Assembly (NCBI GenBank): GCA_910575105.1
Contig: CAJTDK010000001.1
Location: 186,001-250,000 of the forward strand
Direction: 5' to 3'
Length of the DNA stretch: 64,000 bases
DNA from: Lachnospiraceae bacterium
GTDB taxonomy: Bacteria > Bacillota > Clostridia > Lachnospirales > Lachnospiraceae
The notes beneath the pieces were generated by a model. The model did no database searches and was not told the DNA's origin. It saw only the letters and a program-made list of their open reading frames with translations. This document shows positions 23,645 through 45,448 of the stretch, in pieces (the stretch's first letter is position 1; every line of letters begins with the position of its first letter). Position numbers and translations under genes: made by a program.

Positions 23645-24067
23645 CTAAATTTTTTTCCAATACACTTTCAACATTGCCAGAGCAGTTATAAATGCCAGCA
23701 TATCCGCAACCGGGCCTGCCCACAATGCACCTTCTACCCCTAGCACCTCCGGCAGTAACACCGTTGCCGGAATCAGGTATACGATCTGCCTGGACAAAGA
23801 CAGCACCGCTGACTGCGTAGGTTTTCCGATGGCCTGGAAGAAGATGCCCGTTGCCATCGGCAGCTCGTTGATCGGACAGGCCGGAAGAAAGATGCGGAAG
23901 CATTTCACCGCAAACTCATTGTACATCTTCGACTCCGATCCGATGATGCGCACGATACTCATCGGCGCAAACTGGAAGACGGAAAACGCCAGGACTAACG
24001 CGATCGTCGATGCCGTCAGGATAATGCGGTAAGCCTGCCTCACCCTGTCCTCTGGTTCACCTTCATG
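23645..24067 (-). pseudogene. MATE efflux protein relic (C-terminal half), leftward
   Basis: The minus frame reads HEGEPEDRVRQAYRIIL and continues through four or five membrane helices (APMSIVRIIGSES, LPMATGIFFQAIGKPTQSA, GVEGALWAGPVADML) to WKKI. This is the C-terminal half of a NorM/DinF-type MATE transporter. The N-terminal half is absent, and the frame breaks just right of 24067. It lies head to head with a second MATE relic on the other strand. Confidence 0.75.
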
Positions 24068-24112: not shown

Positions 24113-24420
24113 AGCATCTTTAACCGGGAGCCGGAGCTTGTCACCGCCGCCGCAAAGGCATTGCCGGTTTTTAGCCTGCCCTTTATTCCTACGGGTTTAA
24201 ATCTTGTGTATACCTCGCTGCTGTACTCAACCAAAAGGACAAAGCAGTCGGATATCATTGCCATATGCAGAGGAGCCGTAATAAAAGCCTTTGCCATATT
24301 CATGATTCCGGCAGTCTTGGGGATCGGTTCGGTCCGGACTGCCCCGCCGGCCGCGGAAATCATCACATTTGCTGTTGCAGTGATAATCACCAGAAAGACA
24401 AAACTGCCGTTTTCAAAAAA
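24113..24420 (+). pseudogene. MATE efflux protein relic (C-terminal half), rightward
   Basis: The + frame from 24113 reads SIFNREPELVTAAAKALPVF, then PTGLNLVYTSLLYSTKR and SDIIAICRGAVIKAFAIF. These are typical MATE features from the seventh helix onward. It is open to 24511 but resembles MATE only to about 24420. It has no N-terminal half and diverges from the leftward MATE relic, with about 45 bases between them. Confidence 0.65.
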
Positions 24421-24504
24421 GTTAGTACAGCACTGCATTAATCTTAAAGTAGCATATCATTGGCAATGGGTTCTGCAATTCTGCGTGATTAAAATCCAGA
24501 CCGA

Positions 24505-24524
24505 TTTATAAATTATTTAAAATT
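24505..24524 (+). promoter_or_regulatory. AT-rich motif, copy 1, before the poly-Asp sensor kinase
   Basis: TTTATAAATTATTTAAAATT, 26 bases upstream of the kinase start. It matches 18 of 20 bases of the motif at 27105-27124 before the BIG_2 gene, so it is probably a shared regulator site. Confidence 0.55.
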
Positions 24525-24550: not shown

Positions 24551-26398
24551 ATGATTATACAGGAAAGGTACAAGAGTTTGAATCTAAGGAAAAAACTAAT
24601 CATCGCCAGTATATTGATGATACTGATTCCTCTTTTGGTATCTGTGCTTCTCTGTGTCATGCTGATCTTTTATAAAGGAGACAGCTCATTAAACCGCCTG
24701 AAAAGCATTTACGAAAATGATAACGGCTTTTTAAATGTACAGACTATACTATACTCTCACGAAGATCAGATCTTAAGCTATACGCCATTAAAGAATGAGG
24801 ACGCTAAATACGGGGATCATGACAGCGATGACGATGGTTATGGTTATGGTTATTATGATGACGGCAGCGACGACGATGACGACGACGATGATGATGATGG
24901 CGATGACCGTGAGCATGATGATGACGGTGACGACAGCGATGACAATGATGACGGCGATGACGATGACGACGACGATGATATTGCAGACGCTGAGGAGGAC
25001 AGCGGGCATAACAACGATGATATCCATGCTGCTGGCACGATCGGCAATGGCGATCTCAAAAGCGTCCGCAGCGATGACAGCAATCAGAACAACAATAAAA
25101 ACAGTATCAATTACGATTCCGCCCAAAATGCGTTCGGCGACCTGATCAATGAACTTGAAATGATTAGATATTATTATCAGATCAGATGTGATGGCCAGGT
25201 GATCGTCTCCAATCTTCCAGAATACGCCGAAAAGGAAATCGCCGGCCTGGCAGGAGCCGAGTACATGGCAACCCGGAATTTTGCCGTGACAGACGGGGAA
25301 GATTCTGTCGTCAAACGTTCTTATACCGACGGCGTAAAAACGCTGGATGTTATGGCTTATTGTAATCAGTATGACAGCAGCCATTATCTGTCACAGATTA
25401 TCCGGGATTTTTTCGTTCTGATAATCTTTTTCATGGTGGTGCTGACCGCCACAATTATCATCAGCATAATCATCTTGACCAAATGGCTGAGCCGGGGGAT
25501 GCGCAGCTCTCTCGGCCAGTTATCCGAGGCGGTAAGGCAGGTGCAGGATGGTAATCTGAGTTACCGGATCCGCAGCCAGAAAAAAGACGAGCTTGGAAAA
25601 GCCTGTCAGGAATTTGACGAGATGGCTGAATATCTGGAAAATTCCGTAAAAGAACAGGAAAAATACGAAGAATCCCGGAAGCAGATGCTGGCCGGAATTT
25701 CTCACGATCTGCGTACACCCCTTACTTCCGTCAAAGCATACGTGGAAGGTCTTAGAGACGGAATTGCGAACACAGAGGAAAAAAGGCAGCGGTATTACCG
25801 CGCATTAAAGACACGAATTGCGGATCTGGAAGCTCTGATTGACAATTTGTCGCTGTTTTCCAGATTTGACCGCGGAGAATATCATTATTCTATGGAAAGA
25901 ATCGAGCTTGGTGAATTCCTTTCACAGTTTTTTCAGGAAAATGCCGTTGAATTTCAGGAACATCACATTACTCTCGACTATGATATTCAGGCAGAAGAGC
26001 CTCTGCATATAATCGGGGACAAAAAGCAGCTAAGAAGGCTGCTCGGAAATCTGATCGACAATACGCTGAAATACAGAGAAAAAGAAGAGACCAGACTAAA
26101 GACAGTTCTTTACAAAGCAGGCGGGAAAATCGTTTTGGAAATGGAAGATGACGGACCGGGAGTTCCGCCAGAAGAAAGAGAACTGATTTTCGACACCTTT
26201 TACCGGGGCGATAAAGCAAGAAGTGATCCCGGAGGAGGAAGCGGCCTTGGACTTTCAATCGTAAAAGAAATCTTAAAAGGCCACAAAGCCGCTTTTTATG
26301 CAAAGGCCGGACGTGAAGGGAAGGGGCTTAGGCTCGTCATGGAATTTCCTTCTGAGAAGGGAGAGAAGTATGAAAAAAATTCTAATTGTGGAAGATGA
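24551..26398 (+). CDS. Sensor histidine kinase with poly-aspartate extracellular insert
   Basis: A 615-residue kinase (TTG 24578 is an alternative start with a better ribosome site, AGGAAAGG). Membrane helices lie at about 15-41 and 286-311. The extracellular part between them includes residues 89-147, made almost wholly of Asp with Gly, Tyr and His, then a Asn/Ser/Asp stretch and a short folded region. A HAMP segment follows, then HisKA with His385 (AGISHDLRTPLTS) and a HATPase domain with LIDNTLKY, DDGPGVP and GSGLGLSIVKE. Such an acidic loop should bind divalent or polycationic ligands. The response regulator overlaps it by 29 bases. Secreted BIG_2 and PepSY proteins follow. Confidence 0.93.
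   Translation: MIIQERYKSLNLRKKLIIASILMILIPLLVSVLLCVMLIFYKGDSSLNRLKSIYENDNGFLNVQTILYSHEDQILSYTPLKNEDAKYGDHDSDDDGYGYGYYDDGSDDDDDDDDDDGDDREHDDDGDDSDDNDDGDDDDDDDDIADAEEDSGHNNDDIHAAGTIGNGDLKSVRSDDSNQNNNKNSINYDSAQNAFGDLINELEMIRYYYQIRCDGQVIVSNLPEYAEKEIAGLAGAEYMATRNFAVTDGEDSVVKRSYTDGVKTLDVMAYCNQYDSSHYLSQIIRDFFVLIIFFMVVLTATIIISIIILTKWLSRGMRSSLGQLSEAVRQVQDGNLSYRIRSQKKDELGKACQEFDEMAEYLENSVKEQEKYEESRKQMLAGISHDLRTPLTSVKAYVEGLRDGIANTEEKRQRYYRALKTRIADLEALIDNLSLFSRFDRGEYHYSMERIELGEFLSQFFQENAVEFQEHHITLDYDIQAEEPLHIIGDKKQLRRLLGNLIDNTLKYREKEETRLKTVLYKAGGKIVLEMEDDGPGVPPEERELIFDTFYRGDKARSDPGGGSGLGLSIVKEILKGHKAAFYAKAGREGKGLRLVMEFPSEKGEKYEKNSNCGR
24814..24982 (+). repeat. GAY trinucleotide-rich tract encoding poly-Asp
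   Basis: Nearly continuous GAT/GAC codons with scattered GGT/TAT/CAT in the kinase gene. The mix of both Asp codons reduces but does not exclude slippage. Long ORFs on the other strand here are artefacts of this tract. Confidence 0.85.
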
Positions 26399-29714: not shown

Positions 29715-32210
29715 CTACCGGATATCATACACGCTCTTTAAGCGTATCCCTTCCGCTTCTCCGGAGAGAATCTTCACCCGCTTTTCACCTCCGTTCAAGT
29801 CAAAATAGTTATCTGACAAAATAAAATCTTCGTTCTCATTCTGGATTTCCACGCTTTTTGCATAAGCGTCTGCCGACACGATGATCTCATCGCCTTCCAC
29901 CCTCCAGGAAAGCCCGGGATCTTCGTATCTGAAATACTTTGGATAAGAAAAGATAACCGTTCCGTCCGATATCACTCTTCCGTTCTGCCGCATCTCATAG
30001 CTGACATATTCTGAAAATACATCAATCTCAGGCAGCAGCACTTTCTCAAGCCACACGCTGGATAGCGCCGGAACCTCCACTTCCTTCGTGCCTCCATCAC
30101 GCAAAACCCGTGCTTTTGCGTTCCGTACCGCCCATGACACCTGGACGCGCTGCTCTTTTCTTGTCTCATTTGCCACATTTAATTGAACCGACTTTTCAAA
30201 CAGAAAATGCTCGCGGTTCATATCTGCTTCCTGGGTCATCATCCCTTCTTCCTGGCAGGAAATCATAAGGGGCGCAAAAAAGCGTTTTTCTGCATAGTGA
30301 AGCGCCTTCCACCTTCCGCAGTAATCGATGGAAGACCAGGAAATAACAGGCCAGCAGTCATTAAGCTGCCATACGATCGCACCCATACAGCGGCCCCTGT
30401 TTCTCCGGAAATGCTCTACGCCATACCGGATCGCATCCGCCTGCAAAAGCTGCGACGCATAGATCAAGATGTGAAAATCCGTAGGATAAAGATAGATCTG
30501 CTGCAGATAATTCATAATCTTTCCGTTAGCCCCGTACTGCCTCTGATGCTTTTCCATCACATAGGAAAATATATTCTTATCCTTAGGATCGTCTGTAAAT
30601 GTCTCAATCGTCTTCTCACTGGGGAAAGACTGGAACCCAAATTCAGACGCATAGCGGAAGAAATATTTCCGATATTCAGAAAACGGCCGGTTCCCATGCC
30701 ACACTTTCCAATAATGCACATCTCCCCTGTCCGGGCTGTTAGGCTCGTCAAAAGCTCCTCCCGAGGACGGGCTTGCCGGCCAGTAGAACGTCTGCGGATC
30801 ATACTCTGCTAAAACCTCCGGGATTAGCTGCTCATACATCAGGATATAATCACGCACTTCGGTTTTCTTCGTCACCCAGTGGTGCCCCTCTTCCACGAAC
30901 ATCTCCATCTCATTATTGCCGCACCACAGGCCCAGAGAAGCATGATGGCGGATACGCTTGATGTTATCAATAAATTCCTGGCGGATATTCGCCCTGAACT
31001 CTGGCGTAAGCTCATAAACGGCGCAGGCAAACATAAAGTCCTGCCACACCACAAGACCCAGCTCGTCACAGATATCATAAAACCAGTCGTCAGGATAATA
31101 ACCGCCGCCCCATACCCGGACGGTATTATGATTCGCCGCCACACATTGTTCCAGGAGCTTTCTCGTCGTTTCTTTCGTCACTCTCCCAAGAAGATGGTCT
31201 TCCGGAATATAATCTGCGCCCATGGCAAAAATAGCAATGCCGTTTACCTCATGGGCAAAGCTCTCTCCCCATTGATCCTTTTCGATCTTCATAGTCAGTG
31301 TCCGAAGACCGATTCTACTCTCCCAGACGTCCGCTTCCTCCCCGTTGGCAAACAGGATCACCTTTACCGTATAAAGGGGCTGCTCCCCGTAACCGTTGGG
31401 CCACCAGAGCATAGGCCGGCTGATCGGAATTTCTTTCGGAGAATCCGAATAACGCTGAACTGTCCCGTCCGGGGCGGTGATCTCTACCGAATAAGATATA
31501 TCCTCCCGGACGGGAATCTCCTTTCTGTATCCAGCCTTTCCGTATCCATCCTTTTCAAGTAAAGCTGCCGCGTCTTCTTCCGCCTGAACATGAAGGACGA
31601 CGCTTTCCTTCCGATGCTCCTGCCGGATATACACACTGCCAAGCCTTGTGCCCTTTATTCCGACCAGAGACACGTCCCGAAAGATTCCCGCATCTGGCAG
31701 ATGCGCTCCCCAGTCCCAGCCGAACATACAGTGCGCCTTCCGCATGTGGACAAATCCGTCCATGGCGTCCTCTGACCCAAGCGTCCTGCACTTTTCAAAT
31801 TCCTCTCTGATATGCCGCAGCGGGGAATGCAGGACAACTCTCAGCACATTCCCCTTCTCTTTGATCTTGCAGGTCACATCATATTCCCAGACACGGTGCA
31901 TATTATATGCTTTTCCGATATATTCCTGATTCAGGTAGATATCCGCGATCGTATCCAATCCATCAAAACGAAGCAGGATCTTATCCTGCCCGGCAAATTC
32001 CTTCTTAAGCTCAAAGCACGTCTCATATTCATAATCGTCTTCCATCAAAGAAAGGGCGCGGATCTCATTGTCCTTCCAGAAGGGATCTTCCATGTCCCCG
32101 TTCCTTAACAGGTCGGTATAAACCGTCCCCGGAACAGCTGCCGGCCGCGCTTCTTCGCCTTCGCCCATCCGTCTCATCTGCCAGTTTGTATTCAGCACTT
32201 GCTGTATCAT
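29715..32210 (-). CDS. GH2 beta-mannosidase
   Basis: An 831-residue enzyme. ATG 32210 (MIQQVLNTNWQMRRMG) follows GGAGGAGAACAGAG and is preferred to the longer frame to 32444. It has the GH2 sugar-binding, Ig-like and TIM-barrel order. The acid/base is probably Glu434 (WCGNNEMEMF) and the nucleophile Glu523 (YASEFGFQSFPS), both in typical beta-mannosidase context. There is no signal peptide, so it acts in the cytoplasm, releasing beta-linked mannose, for example from Man-beta-1,4-GlcNAc or mannobiose. It is the last gene of the mannoside locus, 61 bases after the isomerase gene. Confidence 0.92.
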   Translation of the reverse strand: MIQQVLNTNWQMRRMGEGEEARPAAVPGTVYTDLLRNGDMEDPFWKDNEIRALSLMEDDYEYETCFELKKEFAGQDKILLRFDGLDTIADIYLNQEYIGKAYNMHRVWEYDVTCKIKEKGNVLRVVLHSPLRHIREEFEKCRTLGSEDAMDGFVHMRKAHCMFGWDWGAHLPDAGIFRDVSLVGIKGTRLGSVYIRQEHRKESVVLHVQAEEDAAALLEKDGYGKAGYRKEIPVREDISYSVEITAPDGTVQRYSDSPKEIPISRPMLWWPNGYGEQPLYTVKVILFANGEEADVWESRIGLRTLTMKIEKDQWGESFAHEVNGIAIFAMGADYIPEDHLLGRVTKETTRKLLEQCVAANHNTVRVWGGGYYPDDWFYDICDELGLVVWQDFMFACAVYELTPEFRANIRQEFIDNIKRIRHHASLGLWCGNNEMEMFVEEGHHWVTKKTEVRDYILMYEQLIPEVLAEYDPQTFYWPASPSSGGAFDEPNSPDRGDVHYWKVWHGNRPFSEYRKYFFRYASEFGFQSFPSEKTIETFTDDPKDKNIFSYVMEKHQRQYGANGKIMNYLQQIYLYPTDFHILIYASQLLQADAIRYGVEHFRRNRGRCMGAIVWQLNDCWPVISWSSIDYCGRWKALHYAEKRFFAPLMISCQEEGMMTQEADMNREHFLFEKSVQLNVANETRKEQRVQVSWAVRNAKARVLRDGGTKEVEVPALSSVWLEKVLLPEIDVFSEYVSYEMRQNGRVISDGTVIFSYPKYFRYEDPGLSWRVEGDEIIVSADAYAKSVEIQNENEDFILSDNYFDLNGGEKRVKILSGEAEGIRLKSVYDIR

Positions 32211-32271
32211 CTCTGTTCTCCTCCTCAGATTCCCTGATCTATCCTGATGCCGGTCCTCTCCCCGCCGCGGA

Positions 32272-32958
32272 TCATTCCGCCTTCGGATACTCGTTGCACA
32301 GCAGGCGATATGGCTCTTCGTCCTCCTCAATCTCCGGAAAACGGCCGATCGGTTCATAGAACCGGTTATCATTTTCATCATCATTGCACATGGACACTTC
32401 TCCCAGCAGCACATCGCCGCTCCCCTCTTCCACATGAAAGTCATGATACATATAGGGATAGATAGTGATGCTCTCCCCCGGCGTTAACCTCACCTTCGTG
32501 CCGGCCGGAACTACGAACTCACGTCCGTCGCAGTTTACCGTAACGTCCGTATCGGCAAACTCCCCGTCTTCCGTAGAATTATAAACCGTGATCAGCACAT
32601 TCCCGCCGCCCCGGTTAATGATATCCTCCATTTTCTTCCAGTGGAAATGCATGGGCGCCATCTGTCCCTCTTTGACAAGGAGAAGCTTTTCTGCATAGGT
32701 TTTTGTATACTTATCGATCTTCAGGTTTCCGTTACGGATCGTAATGAGGGAGAACCCCACTTCGTCAAATTTTCCAAGACCATAGTCCGTAATATCCCAT
32801 CCCAGCATATTATCCCGGATCTCGTTATATTCCGCACCTTTCGTTTTCCAATCCTCAGCGCTCCATTTGCAGAAGGGCGGGATCTCAAAGCCATGGGCCT
32901 GTATCATTTCCTCCATATGTCTGATTTCAGCATTTATCTTTGATCGTTTCATCTTCAT
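32272..32958 (-). CDS. D-lyxose/D-mannose ketol-isomerase family protein
   Basis: A 228-residue cupin-fold protein. Probable metal ligands are His104, His106 and Glu111 (PMHFHWKKMEDI) and His172 (YPYMYHDFH), the arrangement known from D-lyxose isomerases (EC 5.3.1.15), which also convert D-mannose to D-fructose. In this setting the physiological reaction is probably mannose to fructose after glycan trimming (inference). It overlaps the DUF4432 gene by 4 bases (ATGA) and precedes the GH2 gene, so it belongs to the same transcript. Confidence 0.85.
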   Translation of the reverse strand: MKMKRSKINAEIRHMEEMIQAHGFEIPPFCKWSAEDWKTKGAEYNEIRDNMLGWDITDYGLGKFDEVGFSLITIRNGNLKIDKYTKTYAEKLLLVKEGQMAPMHFHWKKMEDIINRGGGNVLITVYNSTEDGEFADTDVTVNCDGREFVVPAGTKVRLTPGESITIYPYMYHDFHVEEGSGDVLLGEVSMCNDDENDNRFYEPIGRFPEIEEDEEPYRLLCNEYPKAE

Positions 32959-34016
32959 GATCTCCTTTCATTTTGTAAAGCTTCGGCTTCTTGTTTTACT
33001 TCATCAAGCTGCCGGCCGGTAAGAAATGCCAGCACGATCCGTTTCTTCTCTGCCGAGAGCGGTTCTATCCGGTGAAGATCCTGCGCTTTCACATGATACG
33101 TCCTTCCGTAGACGCTTGAATTAGCCGGCTCCAGTCCGATCACATAATCTCCTGACGCGATAGATTTCCACTGCATGAAATACGGCAGCTCATTTACATT
33201 ATATTCTATTTTGATCCCCAAATCCAGTCCTCTGTTGATCACTGCCGCAAATGTATTGCCGTCTTTATCCGCGGCCATCTCGTGAAGAAATACATATTCC
33301 GGCTCATAATCCTTCGGCGCCTCCATTCTGCTCCATCCGCCGGCATGAGGCGCCGCCGTCTCATCTCTCGGGATCACCTTTTTCGTCGGAAGGATGATCT
33401 CTGACGTCTCGCACAAAAGCGGATATCCGATGTTCATATGGTACAGCAACATCATCGGCTCTGCCAGAAACCCTTCATTCGCAATCTCATCCTCAATGCA
33501 GATTGTATTGTCCCCATACCGGGTCGTAATTTTCCTCCTCAGAACGAGATTCTCCCCGAAAAGCTCTGCCTCGCGCATCTCTCCCGATACGCTCACTGCG
33601 TAGTCCTCCCCCAGCCAGCATGCATCCGCGCTTACATGTTCCGCCGGGGTTGTACGTATCCTTCCGTGCATGGGATAATCCCTGCCATCCAGACTGCAGG
33701 GCGCGCAGATATTTTCCAAGCCGCAGGTGAACAGCAGGCCGCCCATGATACTGCGCAGCGCCTCGTCTCCGTTCGTATCATAATGACAGCGCCCCATCAG
33801 TCCCGGCTTTGACAAAAAACTTATGTTGTGACCCAAAAAGGACACCTCGGCGATGTCAAGGCATTTATCCGCCATCACCGCAAATCGCAAGGGGCCGTTT
33901 TTTACGTCATATGCTTTCATTCCTCTGGCTCTGCCTTCCTCGTATGTCACCGGGCGCACATACGCAAGCTGCTGCATGTTCCCGGTCAGGCCAAGCAGCT
34001 CTTTCTTTCTATCCAT
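32955..34016 (-). CDS. DUF4432 aldose-epimerase-like protein
   Basis: A 353-residue protein of the galactose-mutarotase-like superfamily. Typical features are a LRFAVMADKCLDIAEVSF segment, GLENICAPC, PMHGRIRTTPAEHV and LYHMNIGYPLL, with His residues suited to a mutarotase site. The DUF4432 subgroup has no proven specific substrate. Beside mannosidases and an isomerase it probably equilibrates or binds a released hexose. It lies between the sugar-binding protein and the isomerase in one operon. Confidence 0.85.
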   Translation of the reverse strand: MDRKKELLGLTGNMQQLAYVRPVTYEEGRARGMKAYDVKNGPLRFAVMADKCLDIAEVSFLGHNISFLSKPGLMGRCHYDTNGDEALRSIMGGLLFTCGLENICAPCSLDGRDYPMHGRIRTTPAEHVSADACWLGEDYAVSVSGEMREAELFGENLVLRRKITTRYGDNTICIEDEIANEGFLAEPMMLLYHMNIGYPLLCETSEIILPTKKVIPRDETAAPHAGGWSRMEAPKDYEPEYVFLHEMAADKDGNTFAAVINRGLDLGIKIEYNVNELPYFMQWKSIASGDYVIGLEPANSSVYGRTYHVKAQDLHRIEPLSAEKKRIVLAFLTGRQLDEVKQEAEALQNERRS

Positions 34017-34107: not shown

Positions 34108-35622
34108 TTACTTTTTCGCTTTCCATTCATCAATCTGTTTCTGCATTTCTGCTATTACCTTGTCAATTCCTGTGGCCTCTAATTTTTCCTGAAGCTTAGG
34201 CAGGTACTCTTCCGGGTCAACGCTTCCGGTAAACAGCGATTTTCCGAACTCGTCCATGACATTGCCGAATCCTGCTACTTCCGTGCTGACAGGCTCTATG
34301 TCGAAATCAAATCCAAAGGACGGGGCGTCGACGGACGCGGTGTTAAATTCCTTGAACGTCGCCCATTTATCCACCGGCTCATTTTCCAGTACATAAGTGT
34401 TGAACAATCCGCCCTGTACCCAGTAGGAAACCGAATAATCCTTCCTTGTCTCCTCATTCAGCTTAATCTTGTTGTCATATACATAAGGCTTTCCTTCTGC
34501 CGCTGCCGCCTCATCTGCCGGAACCTCGACCTTATCCCAGTGCTCGCCTTCGATCCCGTAGTTCAAAAGGTTTCTCAGATACTCGTCCGTATTGATCAGG
34601 TTCAGAAGCTCCACAGCCTTTTCGGGATGCTCTGTCTGCACATTGATCGCAGTCAGCGCTCCACGCGCGGAGATATTGGTCACATAAGTATCCATGATCG
34701 GAGTCGCTACTACTTCATATCCCAGGTCTTTCCCCCATACAAGCTCGGCGTAGGGCTGCCCGTCTCCCTTGGTCACAAAACGCTTGATTGATTTGTCATC
34801 GGAAGCTGTTGCTGCATCTTTATTGATATAACCGTCCAGATAGTATTTTCTCATGGTGTCCAGGGTGGATCTCATCTTTTCCGTCTCAAACACATTCTTA
34901 ACAGTAAGACTGTCGTCGCCGTATTCAATTCCTACCGGGTTCTGGATCAGGTCCATATAAATCGGCGCGGAATAGCTGCTGGTCAGATACATAGGAACAA
35001 CGTCCGGCTCTTTTTCCTTAATGAGCTTAAGCCACGGCTCTAAGTCCTCCAGGCTGTGGATCTCATCCACCGGGACATTATATTTGTCAACATATTCCTT
35101 GGTAAATACCCACATAGGCATACTTCCGATCTCCTTTTCGCTCGGAACGCCGTAAGTCTTGCCCTGCACCTTTGCCGCTTCCCAAAAACGCGCATCGATA
35201 GTTTTATACATGTCCGTATCTTTAATATAGTCATCGATCTGGAGGAACGCGCCTTTGTTGGCGTTCTGGAGGTAATTATTCGCCCATGAGCAGGTAAAGC
35301 ACATATCCCAATCGTCTCCCGTATTGATGACAACCTGCATTTTCTGGTCATAATCGCCCCAGCCGGCAGTGTTAATCTTCAGCTTTACGCCGATCTTCTC
35401 CGTAATATATTCATTCACCTTATCCAGAACCTTTTCCTGATCCTTCTGGGCATCGCCGATCTGCCACCAGGTAAGCTCTACGATCTCGTCTCCATTTGAA
35501 TTGGTCTCAGCCTTTTTTCCGCCGCACCCTGTCATCATCCCGGCTGTCATCATAACAGCAAGACCTGCCGCCGCGAATCTTTTTAACATCTTAAATTTCA
35601 TCATCATTTCCTCCTTGTTCAT
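34108..35622 (-). CDS. Sugar ABC transporter substrate-binding lipoprotein
   Basis: A 504-residue extracellular binding protein (LipO-like family 1). The signal peptide ends in a lipobox (MMTAGMMTGCGGKK), so it is tethered to the outer face of the membrane. Mature features include ELTWWQIGDAQKDQEKVLDK and TGDDWDMCFTCSWANNYLQN, seen in binding proteins for complex oligosaccharides. It starts right after a truncated permease gene. Because both partner permeases are missing here, it may be an orphan unless other permeases accept it. Mannose-containing glycans are the likely ligand from context only. Confidence 0.9.
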   Translation of the reverse strand: MNKEEMMMKFKMLKRFAAAGLAVMMTAGMMTGCGGKKAETNSNGDEIVELTWWQIGDAQKDQEKVLDKVNEYITEKIGVKLKINTAGWGDYDQKMQVVINTGDDWDMCFTCSWANNYLQNANKGAFLQIDDYIKDTDMYKTIDARFWEAAKVQGKTYGVPSEKEIGSMPMWVFTKEYVDKYNVPVDEIHSLEDLEPWLKLIKEKEPDVVPMYLTSSYSAPIYMDLIQNPVGIEYGDDSLTVKNVFETEKMRSTLDTMRKYYLDGYINKDAATASDDKSIKRFVTKGDGQPYAELVWGKDLGYEVVATPIMDTYVTNISARGALTAINVQTEHPEKAVELLNLINTDEYLRNLLNYGIEGEHWDKVEVPADEAAAAEGKPYVYDNKIKLNEETRKDYSVSYWVQGGLFNTYVLENEPVDKWATFKEFNTASVDAPSFGFDFDIEPVSTEVAGFGNVMDEFGKSLFTGSVDPEEYLPKLQEKLEATGIDKVIAEMQKQIDEWKAKK

Positions 35623-35623
35623 A

Positions 35624-35911
35624 CTACTCTTTTACTGCCCCTACAGTCAATCCATTTACAAAATATCTCTGAAAAAACGGATAGGCAAAGATAATCGGCA
35701 ATGTAGAGATGACTACAATGGCCATCTTAATCGTCTCTTTCGGCATATTCGCCGCCGCCGTGATACCGTCCACGCCCATCGTCCCCTTATTGTTGGCGAG
35801 CCAGTCAATAGAGCTTTCGATCTGGATTAAAAGATACTGGAGCGGGATCAGATCCTTGTTATCCATATACATCATCGCGTTAAACCAGTCGTTCCAAATA
35901 GCATTGTGCAC
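35624..35911 (-). pseudogene. Sugar ABC permease relic (LplC/YtcP-like, last 95 codons)
   Basis: The frame reads AIWNDWFNAMMYMDNKDLIP, LQYLLIQIESS and VISTLPIIFAYPFFQRYFVN ending GLTVGAVKE. This is the normal C-terminus of an MsmG/LplC-type carbohydrate permease, including the last helix. About two thirds of the gene is missing at its 5' end, and so is the companion LplB permease that should lie upstream. The truncation point coincides with a perfect inverted repeat at 35904-35951. The stop is 1 base before the binding-protein start region. Confidence 0.85.
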
Positions 35912-35951
35912 TTTTTATGAAAAGTTGAAAACTTTTAGGTTCATTGCACAA
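35904..35951. repeat. Inverted-repeat hairpin at the permease deletion junction
   Basis: Outer arms TTGTGCA (35904-35910) and TGCACAA (35945-35951), inner arms AAAAGTT (35920-35926) and AACTTTT (35930-35936). This may be a scar of an insertion element or a hairpin that promoted the deletion. Confidence 0.6.
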
Positions 35952-35983
35952 ATTCTAGTGGTTATTTTGGATTTTTTATATAC

Positions 35984-36020
35984 AAAAAAATCGTGAAATA
36001 ATTTGTCCATCATTTCACGA
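35984..36020 (-). terminator. Terminator of the YesN-like gene
   Basis: 9-bp stem TCGTGAAAT/ATTTCACGA (35991-35999 with 36012-36020) followed on the minus strand by a run of seven T. Confidence 0.88.
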
Positions 36021-36031
36021 TTTTGTCCACT

Positions 36032-37546
36032 TTAATATTTTTTCATCTCGCGCAGGGATGCGGGCGAAACCCCATAGCATTGTTTGAATTTCCGGTAAAA
36101 ATAACTGGTATCCGGATACCCTACCTGTCTTGCGATGTCATTGATCTTCATATTCGTATTCAGGATAAGGTCTTTCGCGATACTGTTCTTCGTATTGCTC
36201 AGATACTGGGCAAAGGAGCACCCCACCTCCCGCTGGAAGATCTGCCCCAGATAAGAAGCATTCATATGATACTTATACGCCAGAGTCTTCAGATTCATAT
36301 CCTCTTTATAATTATGCCGGACCTCGGCAATGATCTGGCGCACCACCGGGGTATACTGGGAATCCTCCTCATGCATACATTCGATGATCTCCGTGATCTC
36401 TGAGACGAAGGCCGTCTTGATCCCGAGTATATCGTCCGCGCTGAAAATGGTTTCGATCAGCTCCGACAGATCGTGGAATCTCCCTGATTCCAGCTTATAC
36501 TCTTTCTTTATCTCCTGGATCAGCATTGCCATCCTTACCGCGGTCTGATACAGTGCTCCCGCAGACGCATCCTTCTGTATATTATTGATCAGTACGTCTT
36601 CCATATAATCAACTGCCTGATCCTTTTCTTTTTTCAGGATAAATTTCCGAAGCCGGGACTCGTCCATGCTGACCGCCTCGCTCTTCCTGTCCTGTATCTG
36701 GCTCTGGCTGATGCAGCTCCCGTAGCCTTCGATGATCAGATACTTCTGAAGCTTTCTCGCTTTCTTATACGCTCCCGGCAGTTCTTCAAAGCTATGGAAG
36801 GACGGTCCCACGCCGATGAATGTCATCACATTAAACTTGCTGTCGATCTGGCTCTGAAGCTCCAGAAAATACTCCTGTACCTGGACCTCGTCCATATCGC
36901 CGTCCGACAGCACCATAAGAAGGCTGTCCGGAGGAAGGTGCACGATACTCAGCCCATCCTTCTTTTTCAGCTCCACGATCACATCCGTGATCTTTTTTTC
37001 TTTCAGGTCGTCCACGTTCCATTTCATGACAGCCGCATGGTAAGCCTCGCAATCCTCCAAAAGCCCCAGCATCCGGATGTATTTTCCGTATTCGTCCTTC
37101 TGTATCCCGCCGTTTAGGAAATGTATCCATTGGGTTTTCTCGTCGATATACCGGATCTTTTTCTTGTCCATCTCTTCAAGCTTCTCTGCCGTCTCCCTAA
37201 GCTGCCGCTCTAACTCTTCTTCATTGATCGGCTTTAAGATATAGTTCTCTACCTCCAGCCGGATCGCTTCTCTGGCATAATCAAACTCATCGTATCCGGT
37301 GAGGATGATGAAGCGGACCTGCTCCTCTTTTTCCCTGATCTTCTTAAGGAGGGTTAAGCCGTCCATATCCGGCATACTGATATCCGTAACGACAATATGC
37401 ACCGGCTCCTTCTCCCACATCTTTAACGCCTCCAGCCCGTCATGGGCCATATGCACGACCTTAAGCCCGAGAGCTTCCCAGTCCAGGATATTCTTAAGCC
37501 CCTGCAAGATCAGCTCCTCATCCTCCACTAACATTACTTTCTTCAT
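36032..37546 (-). CDS. YesN-like AraC-type response regulator
   Basis: A 504-residue regulator. ATG 37546 (MKKVMLVEDEE) follows GGAAGGAG and begins 2 bases after the kinase stop. Residues 1-120 are a receiver domain with the phosphoacceptor Asp in VVTDISMPDMDG and the Lys in YILKPINEEE. The middle region is a helical linker. The last 100 residues carry two AraC-type helix-turn-helix motifs (LKTLAYKYHMNASYLGQIFQ, and INDIARQVGYPDTSYFYRKF). With the YesM-like kinase it probably activates the mannoside genes when an extracellular glycan is sensed. Confidence 0.94.
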   Translation of the reverse strand: MKKVMLVEDEELILQGLKNILDWEALGLKVVHMAHDGLEALKMWEKEPVHIVVTDISMPDMDGLTLLKKIREKEEQVRFIILTGYDEFDYAREAIRLEVENYILKPINEEELERQLRETAEKLEEMDKKKIRYIDEKTQWIHFLNGGIQKDEYGKYIRMLGLLEDCEAYHAAVMKWNVDDLKEKKITDVIVELKKKDGLSIVHLPPDSLLMVLSDGDMDEVQVQEYFLELQSQIDSKFNVMTFIGVGPSFHSFEELPGAYKKARKLQKYLIIEGYGSCISQSQIQDRKSEAVSMDESRLRKFILKKEKDQAVDYMEDVLINNIQKDASAGALYQTAVRMAMLIQEIKKEYKLESGRFHDLSELIETIFSADDILGIKTAFVSEITEIIECMHEEDSQYTPVVRQIIAEVRHNYKEDMNLKTLAYKYHMNASYLGQIFQREVGCSFAQYLSNTKNSIAKDLILNTNMKINDIARQVGYPDTSYFYRKFKQCYGVSPASLREMKKY

Positions 37547-37548
37547 CT

Positions 37549-39282
37549 TTATGCTCCTTCCCGGCATCCTTTTTCGTCCTCTTCCGGCTTAAAGGTTAGA
37601 ATCACCCTGAGCCCGCCTTCTTTTACTGCTTCCATAGAAACCCCGCATTCCTCTCCATAAACGGCTTTCAGCCTGCGGTTTACATTGGCGACTCCGATGG
37701 ACGACTGCTTTTCCATGATGCCGCATTTTAACTTTCGATTCTGCTCCTTAAGCTCTTCCGCTGGCATGCCTTTCCCGTTGTCTTCCACAATGATCCTGTA
37801 GAATTTCTCTTTCTTAACAGAGATTGTTATGCGGTTATCCTTCTCTTTCATCCGTATACCGTGAATAAAATAATTTTCAATGACCGGCTGCAGCACGAAC
37901 TTGATCACCGGCGTCTGAAGATATTCCTCAGGACATACCACAGCAGCCTGAAACTGGTTCTGATACCGGAACTCGAAAAGCTCCATATATTTTTTACTGT
38001 AATGCAGCTCCTGGGCCAGCGTAATGACATCAGCCTCTTTGATCTGCGCCCTGAACGTTACGGCCAGGCTGTAAAGCATCTTCCCCACCTCTCTGTCGCC
38101 GTTGCAGATAGCTTTCATCCGGATCGCCTCTAAAGTATTATATAAAAAGTGAGGATTGATCTGGCTCTGAAGCGCGGACATCTCGGCGTTTTTTTGCTCG
38201 ATCTCCGCCAGATACCGTTTCTTGATATGCTCATCCAGATTCACGCACATCTCGTTAAAATACTGGGATATCACATCCAGCTCATCCCCGTTCTTATCCG
38301 CCGGGATACGCACGTCCAGATTGCCCTCCATAACCTTCGTCATACCGTCAAGGATCTGGTTGAGCCGCCTGGAAAGCCGCTGCAGATAATACCGGACAAA
38401 CAACTCTCCCACAGCAATAACTGCTGTCCCTACCCCGAAGATCATCAGGAGGACCGGCACCGGCATTGCTGCCGCCTGTTTCTTTTCCAGATAGCTGATC
38501 ACGCGATACTGTCCGATCTGCACCCGCTCCACATAAGCTCCCAGCATAGCTTCTAACGTTTCGTCCCTGTCCCCTTCCATAAGTTTAGGAATCTCGTATT
38601 CTCCCGATGAATCAAACACCGCAAAACCGGCGTCATTATACACTGCCAGCTCTGCCTGGGAATAATACTGCCAGATGCTCTCAAACCTGCTGCTCTTAAA
38701 TCCAAGAAGCATGCAGCCCTTGACCTGCATTGTCACGGGATCGCGTATTTCCTTCATAAAGGAAAAGCTGTCTTCTCCTGCCAGATTGCGCTCTTCAAGC
38801 TGCTCTTTAAGCGTTTCGTCCCCCTGCCTTCTATAGCTCTTCCCATCCCTTGTATACTCTGTCATCTCATCCCGCCCATAGCTGTAAAGCACGATATGAT
38901 TCAGGCTGCTGTACGCCTGGAAGGCATCCAGGAAGAATTTTTCAATCCCTTTATATTCACCGGTCTTATTCTCCGCATATATATCAAGCCGGTACTTCTG
39001 GTAGTCGGCCGGCTCCTCCGTCATATAATGGAGCGCGTCCTTAAGCTCCATATTGGACTTATACAGATCCTCATGGATGTACTCCGCAATATCCGAAGAC
39101 TCTTCCAGATACAAGGCCGCCGATTCATTCATCATCTCTGTATAATTAAGCCTCTGCTCCAGAAAGCGGTTTTTCGTGCTGTGATAAAAATAAGTGACCA
39201 GAGCCGACACGACGCAGACCAGAATAACCGTATAAATAAACAGAAGCTTATTGTACAGCTGCTTTGAGCTTTTTATCTCCAT
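37549..39282 (-). CDS. YesM-like sensor histidine kinase
   Basis: A 577-residue kinase of the HPK7/YesM class. Two membrane helices (about 13-33 and 273-295) flank a large extracellular Cache-like sensor. A HAMP domain follows, then the His_kinase motif ALQSQINPHFLYNTLEAIRM with the phosphoacceptor His, and a HATPase domain with IVEDNGKGMPAEEL and SIGVANVNRRLKAVYG. It is encoded upstream of, and probably co-transcribed with, its regulator. It most likely detects a mannoside or its binding-protein complex outside the cell (inference). Confidence 0.94.
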   Translation of the reverse strand: MEIKSSKQLYNKLLFIYTVILVCVVSALVTYFYHSTKNRFLEQRLNYTEMMNESAALYLEESSDIAEYIHEDLYKSNMELKDALHYMTEEPADYQKYRLDIYAENKTGEYKGIEKFFLDAFQAYSSLNHIVLYSYGRDEMTEYTRDGKSYRRQGDETLKEQLEERNLAGEDSFSFMKEIRDPVTMQVKGCMLLGFKSSRFESIWQYYSQAELAVYNDAGFAVFDSSGEYEIPKLMEGDRDETLEAMLGAYVERVQIGQYRVISYLEKKQAAAMPVPVLLMIFGVGTAVIAVGELFVRYYLQRLSRRLNQILDGMTKVMEGNLDVRIPADKNGDELDVISQYFNEMCVNLDEHIKKRYLAEIEQKNAEMSALQSQINPHFLYNTLEAIRMKAICNGDREVGKMLYSLAVTFRAQIKEADVITLAQELHYSKKYMELFEFRYQNQFQAAVVCPEEYLQTPVIKFVLQPVIENYFIHGIRMKEKDNRITISVKKEKFYRIIVEDNGKGMPAEELKEQNRKLKCGIMEKQSSIGVANVNRRLKAVYGEECGVSMEAVKEGGLRVILTFKPEEDEKGCREGA

Positions 39283-39381: not shown

Positions 39382-40047
39382 TTATCTGCTCTCCAGACTG
39401 CGCATAACACCCTGGTTCATGAACATCACAAGAAATCCATATACACTGCCCATGAACAGCACCGTAGTTCCCGCCGATATCTCGAACGCCGCAAGGATAA
39501 GCGCCAGCGCCACAATATTTCCGAGGGTAAACACCGGTTTCGCGATCAGAAGCGTAACTGCCGTCTTTACGATCTGTATGTTTTTCATCTCATAACGGCT
39601 GGCAAGCAGATAAAGGTTAGGCGTAACAAGCACCGTCGCCGCAAACAGCAGAAGGAACAGCACCGCAAGAGGCAGGATCCGAAGCTGCAGCGCGAAAAAT
39701 TCGATGTTCGTCCAGCAGATCAGCACAGCAAACAACTGTCCTGCACCCAGTCTGACCTTCTGCAGGAAATCCTGGCAATATCCCTTTTTGTAATCCCGAA
39801 ACGCGCTCCGTTCCGTCCCGTGGATCAGACGGTTCATGGCGTACATGACCGCCGACAGGGCCGGTGCAAGAGGCAGCAGACACAGAAGAAATAACGGGAA
39901 GCACTCCCTAACCTTTCCTCCCCCCACAAATATCAGGAATAGCAGTACAGGAATGTTCGATATGACAAACAGCAGATTCACTGTAAAAAAATAGCATACC
40001 TTCTCACAAAACCCAAACACCTTTTCTATGTTGAATAATTCTTCCAT
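39382..40047 (-). CDS. YesL-like DUF624 membrane protein
   Basis: A 221-residue protein; ATG 40047 (MEELFNIEKVFGF) follows AAAGGAAC and is preferred to a TTG at 40068. It has five or six hydrophobic helices, including FFTVNLLFVISNIPVLLFLIF, PLFLLCLLPLAPALSAVMYA and LALILAAFEISAGTTVLFMG. DUF624/YesL proteins commonly accompany YesMN and oligosaccharide ABC genes; their role is not known, though help in uptake or signalling is suspected. It lies 22 bases after the GH38 gene. Confidence 0.85.
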   Translation of the reverse strand: MEELFNIEKVFGFCEKVCYFFTVNLLFVISNIPVLLFLIFVGGGKVRECFPLFLLCLLPLAPALSAVMYAMNRLIHGTERSAFRDYKKGYCQDFLQKVRLGAGQLFAVLICWTNIEFFALQLRILPLAVLFLLLFAATVLVTPNLYLLASRYEMKNIQIVKTAVTLLIAKPVFTLGNIVALALILAAFEISAGTTVLFMGSVYGFLVMFMNQGVMRSLESR

Positions 40048-40069
40048 ATCGGCCGTTCCTTTCTTCAAC

Positions 40070-43000
40070 TTAAACTTTCACCAGTATCGTCTTGATCTCA
40101 TACGCATGGAGGCTCATGCGGATCTCATCTTTTCCGAACCTTGCAGCCGGACGCTCTCTCAGATCGCATTCCGCCCATGCTTTCCATGGAAATCCAAGAT
40201 TTACCTTCACATCCTGTTTTGCCCCTGCAAACTCATGGAAACGGATCACCAGATATTTTCCGTCTTCCGATTTCTTGACCGCATCAAGCTCTACCTGAGG
40301 ATTATCAAAAGAAACAAAGCTGTCATAACAGAAGCGGCATCTGCCTTTTGCGACTTTCATCGGCGCATTCAGTGCAAATCCTTCCTGAACCACATTTCCT
40401 TCCACAAAATCCCCCCTGTGGGGCAGCAGCGCATAAGTAAAGGTGTGCTCTCCCTGATCCTGAAGATGGTCCGGATGTGTGCCTGCCTTCAGAAGTGTGA
40501 TCCGCAGCACATTGTCCTTAATATCATGTCCATACTTACAGTCGTTTAAGATACTGACTCCATAATTACGCTCTGACAGATCCGCCCACCGGTGCGCCAC
40601 TGTCTCAAATTTTGCCATATCCCAGCTTGTATTCCAGTGGTTCGGTCTTCTGACATTGCCATACTGCACATCGTACGTCCCGTAGGTCGAGCGAATATCC
40701 ACCGGAAAGGCCGCTTTCAAAAGCTGGTGCTGCTCATGGTAATCTACATCTGTCTTAAAATCAATCCTTCGGTCATTGCTGTAAAGAACCATATCCTGAC
40801 TGATATGGGAGCGCATATAGTCCCATTCCATATGGATATTCATGAACAGCGGCCCCATCTCCGTAATCTCAAATGTGGCAAGCTCCGTAACTTCCCGCAT
40901 CTTTTCCTGATAAAAAATATCAATATCCCACGCATCATTGTCAAGGGGCTTGTCTTCAAATACCTGAAGGACATTTCCCCGCTGGCCTTCTGGCATCACA
41001 TCCCGGCCAAAGGTTTTGTCATACAGCTTTGTAATCTGCCCATACTGATTCAAAGAGATCTGGTAGTACGGCGTCTCAATCTCCCTGCCGTTCACCGCGA
41101 ATGCCGCTTTGGGCGCATCACTTTTTACCTCTTCAAAAAAAACTGTCTTCGCTCCCATGGCGGGGACATCCTTGACCTCAACGTAGGCCGCCCTGCGCCC
41201 TTTTTGGGAGACCAGTTCATTTCCTTCCAGATCCTTAAAGATACCCTCCCTGGTTTCCGGCACGGTAACTGTCTGGCTCATGGTCCAGCCGGAATCGTTG
41301 AATACAGTATATGTATTTTCTTTCTGTTCCAGTATATCCGCATACGCCTGGCTCTCTACCTCCCGGGCAAGGCTTTCGATATAGGCGTAATCCTTTCTGG
41401 AATCCTCATACACCTCATGAATCGACGAGCCTGGGATAATATCATGAAACTGATCCGTCAGAATGTGCTTCCAGCCCATTGTCAGCTTCTCCTGCTGTGC
41501 TTTCTCTATGCCGCCTGCAAAAAGCGCGCCCGCCGCTGTCAGCCATTCTGCCCTGCGGTAAAGAAGCTCCATCCGCCGGTTCATTCTCTTGTTATAGCCC
41601 TGACTTGTGTACGTGCCTCTATGGTATTCCAGATACAGCTCCCCGTCCCACGTATGTACATATTGGTCTGTATTCTCCACGGTATCATGAAGTCTGCGGA
41701 AATACTCTCTGGCAGTGGACATTTTCACATTCGGGAGTCCCGGGATCTTATCCATCCTTCTTCTGTATTCCAGCATATCCCGGTTCACGCCGCCGCCTCC
41801 GTCTCCGAAGCCGAATGAAATCAGCAGGTCTTTATTCATCTGTTTTTCACTGTAGGCATCCCACACGCCCTTTACCGTTCTTGGCAGCAGCTTCCCATTA
41901 TAAGTATAAAACCAGGAGTCCTTTTCATTCCATGGCTCCGGCGTAGTGATAAAATGGGTCAGGATCTCGCTGCCGTCGATCCCTTTCCACATAAACGTAT
42001 CGTGAGGCATACGGTTGTACTGATTCCAGCTGATTTTTGTCGTCATAAAGGTATCAATTCCGGCCTTTTTCAAGATCTGAGGCAGCGCCCAGGAATAGCC
42101 GAACACATCCGGCAGCCACAGATATTCTACATCTTTTCCGAATTCATCCTTGATAAATTTACTGCCGATGAGGATCTGTCTCGTAAGGGATTCTCCGCTT
42201 GTCAGGTTGCAGTCGGCTTCCACCCACATACCGCCGTCAGTCTCCCAGCGCCCTTCCATGGCTCTTTTCTTAATGTTCCTGTAAATATCCGGGAACTCCT
42301 CTTTCATGTACTCATAAAGCTGGGGCTGCGTCTGGAGAAAGATATATTCCGGATACAGCTCCATCAGGCGGAGTACGGTTGAAAAGGAGCGGGAACATTT
42401 CTCTCTCGTATGCTTCAGCCGCCAAAGCCATGCCACATCGATGTGCGTGTGGCCTACACAGTATACATTGATCATGGAATTCTTATCCATCCGGTCAATG
42501 CATTCATTCAGGTAATCGTCCGCCTGATGCACGGAATCGTAGAATTCTTCGCTGCCCGGAACCGACCAGTCAATGCAGTGACACGCCCCATCCAGCGCTT
42601 TTCTCAGTTCATGCTGCTCTGGACAGTATTCATCAAGCTCTTTCACCGTCTGCCACACCATAGACGCCGTATAATAAAAATCGTCAACCTTTTCATCCAG
42701 CCATGCCAGATCCGCACGCGCGATCTTGTGTTCCTGCTCCTTAGGGGCTCCGCCTCCCTCCAGACCTGACCACAGGCGGAAGGTCAGGTCTGCGGTCGTT
42801 CCGCACAGGGCGTCGTCAAAGAACACTTCCTTGTGGTTCACATCCACCCCCTGATACATGCTGCCGTTAATATACAGCATGGATTCAAAGCCGGAATTAT
42901 TGCCCGCTCCGGTATTGCCGTAATCGAAGATTCCAACCACCCTTTTTTCCTTCCATTCCGCCGGAATATACATATCCTTATGCAGCCAGAGATACCTGTC

Positions 43001-43183
43001 GCGTCCTTTCCACGTATCCCCTGTTTCTAATACCTCACACTCCTCAAATGCCGGAAGTGCCGGATTTACTACTCCCTGATCGTCTTCTGCCGCAGCAAAG
43101 CTTTTTAGCCCAATGATATCTCTGTATCTATACGGCTCAAGCTCGCTGATACGCCGCTCTAATTTTCTGTCTGTCAAAAACAT
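40070..43183 (-). CDS. GH38 alpha-mannosidase
   Basis: A 1037-residue enzyme. ATG 43183 is chosen for its 5-base spacing from AAGGAGG; the next ATG upstream is only 2 bases away from it. Zinc ligands and the catalytic core are visible: HTHIDVAWLW (His245, Asp249), the nucleophile Asp359 in LWLPDVFGYSWALPQ, and QFHDIIPGSSIHEVYEDS with a further zinc His. The central three-helix bundle and C-terminal beta domains follow. There is no signal peptide, so it trims alpha-mannosides in the cytoplasm. It follows the GH125 gene and precedes YesL in one run of genes. Confidence 0.95.
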   Translation of the reverse strand: MFLTDRKLERRISELEPYRYRDIIGLKSFAAAEDDQGVVNPALPAFEECEVLETGDTWKGRDRYLWLHKDMYIPAEWKEKRVVGIFDYGNTGAGNNSGFESMLYINGSMYQGVDVNHKEVFFDDALCGTTADLTFRLWSGLEGGGAPKEQEHKIARADLAWLDEKVDDFYYTASMVWQTVKELDEYCPEQHELRKALDGACHCIDWSVPGSEEFYDSVHQADDYLNECIDRMDKNSMINVYCVGHTHIDVAWLWRLKHTREKCSRSFSTVLRLMELYPEYIFLQTQPQLYEYMKEEFPDIYRNIKKRAMEGRWETDGGMWVEADCNLTSGESLTRQILIGSKFIKDEFGKDVEYLWLPDVFGYSWALPQILKKAGIDTFMTTKISWNQYNRMPHDTFMWKGIDGSEILTHFITTPEPWNEKDSWFYTYNGKLLPRTVKGVWDAYSEKQMNKDLLISFGFGDGGGGVNRDMLEYRRRMDKIPGLPNVKMSTAREYFRRLHDTVENTDQYVHTWDGELYLEYHRGTYTSQGYNKRMNRRMELLYRRAEWLTAAGALFAGGIEKAQQEKLTMGWKHILTDQFHDIIPGSSIHEVYEDSRKDYAYIESLAREVESQAYADILEQKENTYTVFNDSGWTMSQTVTVPETREGIFKDLEGNELVSQKGRRAAYVEVKDVPAMGAKTVFFEEVKSDAPKAAFAVNGREIETPYYQISLNQYGQITKLYDKTFGRDVMPEGQRGNVLQVFEDKPLDNDAWDIDIFYQEKMREVTELATFEITEMGPLFMNIHMEWDYMRSHISQDMVLYSNDRRIDFKTDVDYHEQHQLLKAAFPVDIRSTYGTYDVQYGNVRRPNHWNTSWDMAKFETVAHRWADLSERNYGVSILNDCKYGHDIKDNVLRITLLKAGTHPDHLQDQGEHTFTYALLPHRGDFVEGNVVQEGFALNAPMKVAKGRCRFCYDSFVSFDNPQVELDAVKKSEDGKYLVIRFHEFAGAKQDVKVNLGFPWKAWAECDLRERPAARFGKDEIRMSLHAYEIKTILVKV

Positions 43184-43327
43184 CATATCCTCCTTGAAAT
43201 CTCCCCATCGTAAATCGGGAAACCGAATCATCTTTATAGCATCATTTTACGATGTCAGGAAATTTTTTTCAATTCAGAGAATTCTAGTTTTGCTGAACAT
43301 TATTTACATTTAAAAATTTCCCTGTTC

Positions 43328-44626
43328 TCAACGCTGAATACGATATCCGCAATAATCCAGCACCAGCTCGCAGAACATGGCGTTGGCCCAGGAAAACCAT
43401 TCCCTTGTATACCTGGTATCATCATCCGCATGAAAGCCTTCGTGCATAAGGCCCGTGCCGCCGTCTGTCTGCGCGAGCATGTGCAGGCTCTCTAACTTTT
43501 CTTTCTCCGTCTTTGCGGTCAGTCCCTCCATCGCCAGCGCAATATGCCAGATATACTTTGCCGGAGTGTGCGGGCTTCCGATGCCTGCTGCCTTTCTGCC
43601 CTCATAATAGTAGGGATTCGCCTCGCTCAAGATCAGCTTTCTTGTATTTTTCGTCACTTCTTCATGCTTTCCCTGAAACCCAAGATAATTCATGGAAAGC
43701 AGGCTTGGCACATTCGCATCGTCCATCAGATTGAACTGCCCGTATCCGTCCGCCTCATACGCATATACTCTGCCGAAGTTCTCTGTATCTGTAATCCCGA
43801 AAGATTCTATCCCTTCATAGATCTCCTCTTTTAACCGTTCTGCCTCATCCTTAAGTTCCAAGTCCCCGAACACATCTTCCGCGATCTCCTCCAGATACGC
43901 CAGCACAACCGCGGCAAACATATTGGACGGAACCAGATATCCGTAGGTACATGCATCATCACTGGGACGAAACCCCGACCAGGTCATGCCAATGCCCGGT
44001 TTTACCAGCGCGCCCTTCCCGTCTCTGGAAAGGGTATCCGTAAAATACGTATCTTTCCTCACAAAGCGGTAGGCAGATTCTTCCTCATGGTTCTGCTCCG
44101 TGCGAAATACTTTAAGAATCTTGCTGACTCCTTCCCTGAAGGCCCCATCAAAATGATCAGTGCGTCCGGTATTTTTCCAGATCAGATATGCGAACTGTAA
44201 CGGGTAACAGAGCGAGTCCACTTCGTACTTGCGCTCCCACACCCAGTCTCCCATATCGGTATCATCATGCTCCCAGCAATTTCCATTGGCCGCCTCATTA
44301 AACGCATTGGCATACGGGTCAATATTCACATACATAAACTGCCGCTTTGACAGGCCGACCAGAAGATCCGAAAGCTCCGCCTCCTCTTTCGCCGCCACAA
44401 GATAAGGCCGAAGCTGCGCCACGGAATCCCTAAGCCACATGGCCGGGATATCTCCTGTGATCACATACGTGGTTCCATCCTCCATCCTTTTTACTGTAGT
44501 GTCCAATGTATTGCCATAACATTTTTCAAACATCTCAAATAATTTTGGTTCGTCTTTTAACTTCTCCTTCACTGTCTGAGCGATCTTTTCCATTGAATCA
44601 TACTGATACTTCCGTGCCATGATCAA
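43328..44626 (-). CDS. GH125 exo-alpha-1,6-mannosidase
   Basis: A 432-residue cytoplasmic enzyme (start ATG 44626 or, equally possible, ATG 44620 giving MARKYQYDSMEKIAQ). GH125 hallmarks are ITGDIPAMWLRDSVAQLRPY, YVNIDPYANAFNEAANG, CWEHDDTDMGDWVWERKYEVDSLCYPL and GMTWSGFRPSDDACTYGYLV, which include the catalytic acidic residues. The family removes alpha-1,6-linked mannose from N-glycans. It heads the mannoside locus and is preceded by a TATAAT box near 44678-44683 on the minus strand. Together with GH38 and GH2 it could strip an entire N-glycan mannose core. Confidence 0.94.
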   Translation of the reverse strand: MIMARKYQYDSMEKIAQTVKEKLKDEPKLFEMFEKCYGNTLDTTVKRMEDGTTYVITGDIPAMWLRDSVAQLRPYLVAAKEEAELSDLLVGLSKRQFMYVNIDPYANAFNEAANGNCWEHDDTDMGDWVWERKYEVDSLCYPLQFAYLIWKNTGRTDHFDGAFREGVSKILKVFRTEQNHEEESAYRFVRKDTYFTDTLSRDGKGALVKPGIGMTWSGFRPSDDACTYGYLVPSNMFAAVVLAYLEEIAEDVFGDLELKDEAERLKEEIYEGIESFGITDTENFGRVYAYEADGYGQFNLMDDANVPSLLSMNYLGFQGKHEEVTKNTRKLILSEANPYYYEGRKAAGIGSPHTPAKYIWHIALAMEGLTAKTEKEKLESLHMLAQTDGGTGLMHEGFHADDDTRYTREWFSWANAMFCELVLDYCGYRIQR

Positions 44627-44849: not shown

Positions 44850-45370
44850 CTACCGCAATACTCTCGCCCCGGCGCCGTAGTTGACTGCTAATCCGGCATC
44901 CCCGGCAGTCATAAGGCCGTAGATCAGGCCGGACGCGAAGGAGTCCCCGACGCCTACCCGGTCCATGATCTCCAGTCCCTTATAATCCTTTGACTTGTAG
45001 ATCTTTCCGTCTGCCCAGCAGATGGCACTCCAGTCATTTACCGTCGCCGTCTTTACCTCCCGCAAGGTCGTTGCCACAACTTTAAAATTCGGATACACCT
45101 CTGCTGCATGATTGATCATCTTCTTGTATCCGTCAAGATTTAACTCCTTTAAGCTTTCATCATTTCCTTCAATTTCAAAACCAAGGCAGGCGGTAAAGTC
45201 TTCCATCAAAAATCCCACCTCGTTCTCCGCAAAGGCAGTGATCACGCCGATCCTCATGCCGGAGCCTCTGCGAACCTCCAGTATCCCGCAGGAAGCCAGC
45301 CCTTTTACCGCCTCCCGGATCGTGCTGCGCCCGACGCCGAACCTCTCTGCAAGCTCAAATTCATTGGTAA
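44850..45370 (-). pseudogene. GntR-KdgK chimeric relic
   Basis: One open minus frame without a start codon (TAA at 45371-45373). It begins with a GntR/FadR winged helix (TNEFELAERFGVGRSTIREA, then SCGILEVRRGSG). Near 45235 it passes into the C-terminal half of a PfkB sugar kinase of the 2-keto-3-deoxygluconate type (NEVGFLMEDFTACLGFEIEG, VATTLREVKTA, DRVGVGDSFASGLIYGLM). The kinase lacks its N-terminal half and, near VNYGAGARVLR, about 20 residues before the end. It appears to be a product of deletions joining a regulator gene to a kdgK gene. The imported AT-rich cassette begins immediately to its right. Confidence 0.75.
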
Positions 45371-45448
45371 TTTACGCATAAGGCAGACAGGCGGCAGGGA
45401 GAAATCTCTGCTACTGTTCTTGAGAGGATACGATTCATAATTCATTTC

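Follow-up and report, generated by a model that had tools for sequence, protein, structure and literature searches.

Deletion of lplB and most of lplC from an NgtS-like importer locus in a Lachnospiraceae bacterium

The window, i.e., the 64,000 nucleotides analysed here, is part of a 357-kb contig in a draft assembly of 86 contigs from a gut-type Lachnospiraceae bacterium. It contains a glycan-uptake locus which has lost both permease genes. lplB is gone and of lplC only the C-terminal end is left. The neighbouring genes on both sides are intact, the endpoints of the deletion are defined, and the missing genes are found nowhere else in the assembly. We consider the deletion real, recent and illegitimate, and the function of the importer lost with it, with a probability of about 0.82. 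Loss of transport, a weakened promoter and relaxed selection on the locus are inferred.

The locus and its deletion

The genes and sites under discussion are the following.

29715-32444, minus strand: GH2 beta-mannosidase-like enzyme (Glyco_hydro_2_N2, Mannosidase_ig, Ig_mannosidase)
32272-32958, minus strand: D-lyxose/D-mannose isomerase (PF07385; NF051472 below its cut-off)
32955-34016, minus strand: DUF4432 protein, putatively aldose-epimerase-like (PF14486)
34108-35622, minus strand: lplA, NgtS-like solute-binding lipoprotein, intact, 504 aa (Pfam SBP and DUF3502)
35624-35911, minus strand: lplC remnant, a 95-aa ORF which opens in promoter sequence and holds about 91-92 native C-terminal codons
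35897-35898, no strand: deletion junction between lplC (at codon ~224) and the lplB promoter region; the window is ~1.75 kb shorter here than G001
35898-35961, minus strand: conserved block, the probable lplB promoter (CTAGAATTTGTGCAATGAACCTAAAAGTTTTCAACTTTTCATAAAAAGTGCACAATGCTAT), -10 box cut by the junction; from an alignment of about 20 relatives
35987-36024, minus strand: intrinsic terminator of yesN, 16-bp stem and T run; the second inverted repeat nearby
36032-37567, minus strand: yesN, AraC-type response regulator
37549-39282, minus strand: yesM, sensor histidine kinase, colinear with G001
39382-40068, minus strand: yesL, DUF624 membrane protein (PF04854)
40070-43231, minus strand: GH38 alpha-mannosidase
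43328-44626, minus strand: GH125 exo-alpha-1,6-mannosidase (PF06824, E 4e-156)

The main reference was the matching sequence of Lachnospiraceae bacterium 3-2 (G001; KE159796.1, locus L084), a member of the same genus; coordinates for the deletion comparison are given as L025. Among six genomes of this genus only G001 shares the locus with the window. In G001 the order is GH125-GH38-yesL-yesM-yesN-lplB-lplC-lplA-DUF4432-isomerase-GH2 and all genes are intact.

By blastn, G001 and the window align continuously across lplA and part of lplC as far as position 35896 (83% nucleotide identity). The alignment starts again within the lplB promoter, at 35898, and continues through yesN and yesM (77%). 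Between these two points G001 has about 1750 nt (L025 11262 to 13013), the window a single nucleotide. The same breakpoints recur against more than 20 relatives, and the junction is clean against those which retain the sequence on both sides of it. The net loss of ~1.75 kb is a simple deletion without an insertion sequence. The longest exact word common to both ends, examined over 100 nt on each side in G001, has 8 nt and does not lie at the junction. This suggests neither homologous recombination nor a repeat-driven collapse of the assembly. Neither an IS nor flanking repeats were found at the junction, and a rearrangement mediated by either is thus not indicated. The deletion would have been illegitimate, its ends sharing little or no homology, and would have removed the 5' UTR, all of lplB and some 70% of lplC.

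An insertion element or phage at the junction was considered and none was found; the phage search returned only two weak matches (72% over 101 nt of the lplC remnant) to unannotated Listeria phage records. A relocation of lplB and lplC is ruled out, because searches of the own genome with full-length LplB and LplC returned only the remnant and paralogues, the best of which are 33% (LplB) and 36% (LplC) identical and are both located on C8.

The original prediction had thus described the essentials correctly: an intact binding-protein gene, about 95 remaining LplC codons, and no lplB between this remnant and yesN. It had further placed the breakpoint at an inverted repeat, and this does not hold. 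The palindrome AAAAGTTGAAAACTTTT (35920-35936) is ~22 nt away from the junction and the other repeat is the yesN terminator.

Age of the event

The remnant corresponds to residues 224-315 of G001 LplC with 92% identity (tblastn); the few extra codons of its ORF are read from promoter sequence. Compared with the consensus of the relatives about one residue has changed, there is no stop and no frameshift, and dN is 0.01-0.03. A remnant that has hardly changed argues for a recent loss. Synonymous sites are near saturation between the species, which makes pairwise dN/dS weak evidence, and the deletion thus appears young relative to the split from G001. The locus is colinear and intact in sister taxa and the remnant is conserved and in frame, as one expects of a recent deletion pseudogene. 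lplA and the enzyme genes are likewise free of decay. Relaxed selection on lplA, when probed via branch length, gave no signal: its end branch is 0.039 compared with 0.088 in the sister, i.e., there is no acceleration. The short branch fits a very recent event, but equally a continued use of the gene.

The promoter of the operon

The palindrome at 35920-35936 is part of a conserved block upstream of lplB (CTAGAATTTGTGCAATGAACCTAAAAGTTTTCAACTTT...TGCACAATGATATAGT) which is present in about 20 relatives, nearly all of them with intact permeases. A deletion scar can therefore be dismissed; this is native promoter sequence. The counterpart in G001 is at L025 about 13010-13075. To judge from the alignment, the block is probably the lplB promoter with a candidate regulator site, conceivably for a regulator of the YesN/RR07 type. 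The pneumococcal study found no motif for the RR07-type regulator (PMC7075642).

The -10 box reads TATAGT in about 20 relatives (TACAGT in one) and TATTTG in the window, the junction falling directly after its first three bases. A promoter scan of G001 (L025) yields TTTTCA, 17 nt and TATAGT with a TG before the -10 box; at the corresponding place in the window the scan yields no promoter. The junction cuts into the -10 box, which probably weakens the operon promoter. lplA and the genes that follow it, the isomerase and GH2 genes included, are probably expressed below their normal level and poorly transcribed.

Of note, a dyad (ACTGCA..TTGAC-GAACCGGTAA-GTCAA..TGCAGT) is conserved in the 5' UTR, downstream of the lplB promoter and ahead of the start codon, and some of the changes in it are paired. 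It is located at L025 12950-13009 (minus strand), occupies the same place in about 20 relatives and is deleted in the window. It has no Rfam match, and RNAalifold predicts only 7 pairs at -0.35 kcal/mol; we therefore record the dyad without proposing an RNA element.

Intact and broken loci in relatives

The original prediction had proposed a comparison with the same locus in relatives. The LplA tree comprises 55 proteins, and the window falls into a clade of 28 rows, 27 of which can be assessed (upstream sequence is lacking for row L050). In 22 of the 27, G001 and 21 others, both permease genes precede lplA and are intact. In five rows of the clade, the window included, the permeases are broken. 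All five are at tips and the lesions differ; the other four are listed here.

Dorea sp. 5-2, L093 5498-6894: fusion of lplB, at codon 189, with lplA, at codon 207
Lachnospiraceae bacterium 3-1, L049 3540-5052: loss of some 90 nt at the end of lplB; yesL joined to yesN
MAG, L092 2800-6260: several deletions and a stop
MAG, L036 4333-6010: transposase directly upstream of lplA

On the LplA tree five separate changes are required, of which at least four are forced by well-supported branches. The lesions of the relatives also strike yesL-yesM-yesN, GH38-GH125 and lplA. Since they vary in place and often affect regulators or enzymes as well, they fit the erosion of a dispensable operon better than a targeted loss of permeases.

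A second layout of the locus exists (L072, L074, L077, L079, L081, L087, L091, L105). Here, lplA directly follows yesN, and a more distant lplB-lplC pair and a second lplA-like gene are located downstream.

Other features of the window

Just upstream of GH125, at 44850-45440 (minus strand), the reading frame of a GntR-family HTH continues into the final ~115 residues of a KDG-kinase-like protein. The first part of the regulator is out of frame, and the whole is another deletion-scar pseudogene. Of a MATE efflux transporter, 23645-24043 (minus strand) encodes only ~130 C-terminal residues; by eye, a second MATE fragment appears in opposite orientation at 24161-24511 (plus strand), which makes this a decayed and possibly inverted transporter locus. 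These two further wrecked loci, at 23.6-24.5 kb and 44.85-45.4 kb, fit a general decay. A sensor histidine kinase at 24551-26398 (plus strand) has a long extracellular run of Asp/Gly/Tyr-rich repeats and is perhaps a metal sensor. At 1214-1291 (plus strand) the skipping-rope RNA family is matched (RF02924, 66.2 bits).

Identity of the transporter

The best match of LplA among solved structures (phmmer) is pneumococcal NgtS, 5swa/5swb, with E 7.4e-64, for 5swa over residues 30-501; the strong matches comprise 5swa/5swb, 5suo and 5mlt (E 7e-64 to 1e-62). 5SWA and 5SWB are NgtS with bound glycan (PMC5215778). NgtS binds Man5GlcNAc, its partner permeases in the ABC importer are NgtP1 and NgtP2, and GH38 and GH125 process the imported products (PMC5215778). 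Control of the importer is exerted by the two-component system TCS07 (PMC7075642). A Trp in the SYWVQGG motif of LplA aligns with a Trp of NgtS, which may be Trp386, the residue that stacks on the ligand (PMC5215778).

We took an importer of the NgtS type to consist of an NgtS-homologous binding protein, the permeases NgtP1/NgtP2, Man1-5GlcNAc binding, the mannosidases GH38 and GH125, and GH85 plus GH92 for substrate supply. The binding protein of the window is an NgtS homologue along its full length, and GH38 and GH125 accompany it according to Pfam. The two cognate permeases are lacking, with lplB absent and lplC cut to 91-92 codons. The profiles for GH85 (PF03644) and GH92 (PF07971) have no match in the genome; hence, release of the substrate would have to fall to a different enzyme or to a different organism. 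The label of the original prediction, a mannoside transporter, was too general. Judged by the NgtS match and the set of GH38, GH125, GH2, isomerase, YesM/YesN and DUF624, the locus is better read as NgtS-like uptake of N-glycan fragments. For lack of its permeases the copy in the window would no longer be a working importer of this type.

Meaning of the loss and alternative explanations

Lacking either transmembrane subunit, the NgtS-like binding protein could not deliver its substrate, and import by this system would be lost. With its -10 box truncated, the promoter would probably drive little transcription of lplA and the downstream genes. The enzymes themselves are intact and probably starved of substrate; the locus would have ceased to be under strong selection and be at an early stage of decay.

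The original prediction had left a choice between rerouted uptake and a recent loss with the enzymes kept. The latter is supported by the absence of decay and by a sister with intact permeases. Rerouting would imply that LplA is still served by permeases encoded elsewhere, e.g., the pair on C8. Indeed lplA is intact and conserved, as are the enzymes, and among the 44 BPD_transp_1 matches in the genome there is one pair of the LplB/LplC type, the one on C8. However, this pair, the best candidate, is only 33-36% identical to the lost permeases, it belongs to a complete cassette that brings its own binding protein and LacI-type regulator, and the promoter before lplA is damaged. We consider rerouting unlikely. 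An assembly artefact or a collapse of mixed strains, the organism itself possessing intact lplBC, is highly improbable. In a draft of this kind the population may have been mixed, only part of it carrying the deletion, yet the ends carry no repeats, both flanks are colinear with G001, the missing genes are on no contig, the junction is far inside the 357-kb contig, and contamination is 0.68% at a completeness of 99.96%.

A different question is whether the loss was adaptive in related gut Lachnospiraceae, for instance as an escape from phages or bacteriocins which use the permease, or as a result of cross-feeding. Five separate changes, all at tips within a clade of 28 rows, speak for such a view. 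Yet the differing lesions, which include regulators, enzymes and lplA, have the look of general operon erosion, and two of the five broken rows are MAGs. We regard an adaptive loss as quite improbable. It is likewise very doubtful that permeases were lost in parallel under selection across gut Lachnospiraceae while binding protein and enzymes were kept, e.g., to escape a permease-using predator.

The preferred reading, a recent illegitimate deletion with loss of function, has a practical side. A mannosidase set and a binding protein are present in this genome, and a call of N-glycan use from enzymes alone would be wrong. Further, a naturally broken locus together with an intact one in a sister species is a ready comparison for testing the cargo of the importer.

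Comparison with known systems

The LplABC/YtcP-type CUT1 importers of Bacillus subtilis have the same subunit architecture and gene order; they differ in substrate and genomic partners. A close parallel is NgtS-NgtP1-NgtP2 of S. pneumoniae (ABCNG; PMC5215778, PMC7075642). Alike are the binding protein, GH38 and GH125, the two permeases as seen in the intact relatives of the window, and a histidine kinase/response regulator pair beside the glycan genes. The window differs in that it has lost both permeases, that its locus also includes a lyxose/mannose isomerase and a GH2 beta-mannosidase-like enzyme, that the genome has no GH85 or GH92, and that importer, enzymes and regulator are united in one locus.

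A convergent loss of parts of ABC importers in gut clostridia has already been described (PMC5951980). The deletion in the window is a further case, i.e., a new one of a known kind. Common to both are independent, partial deletions of importers. C. difficile, however, lost genes for the binding protein and the ATPase, probably via repetitive DNA, whereas the window organism lost its permeases without the involvement of repeats (PMC5951980 for C. difficile).
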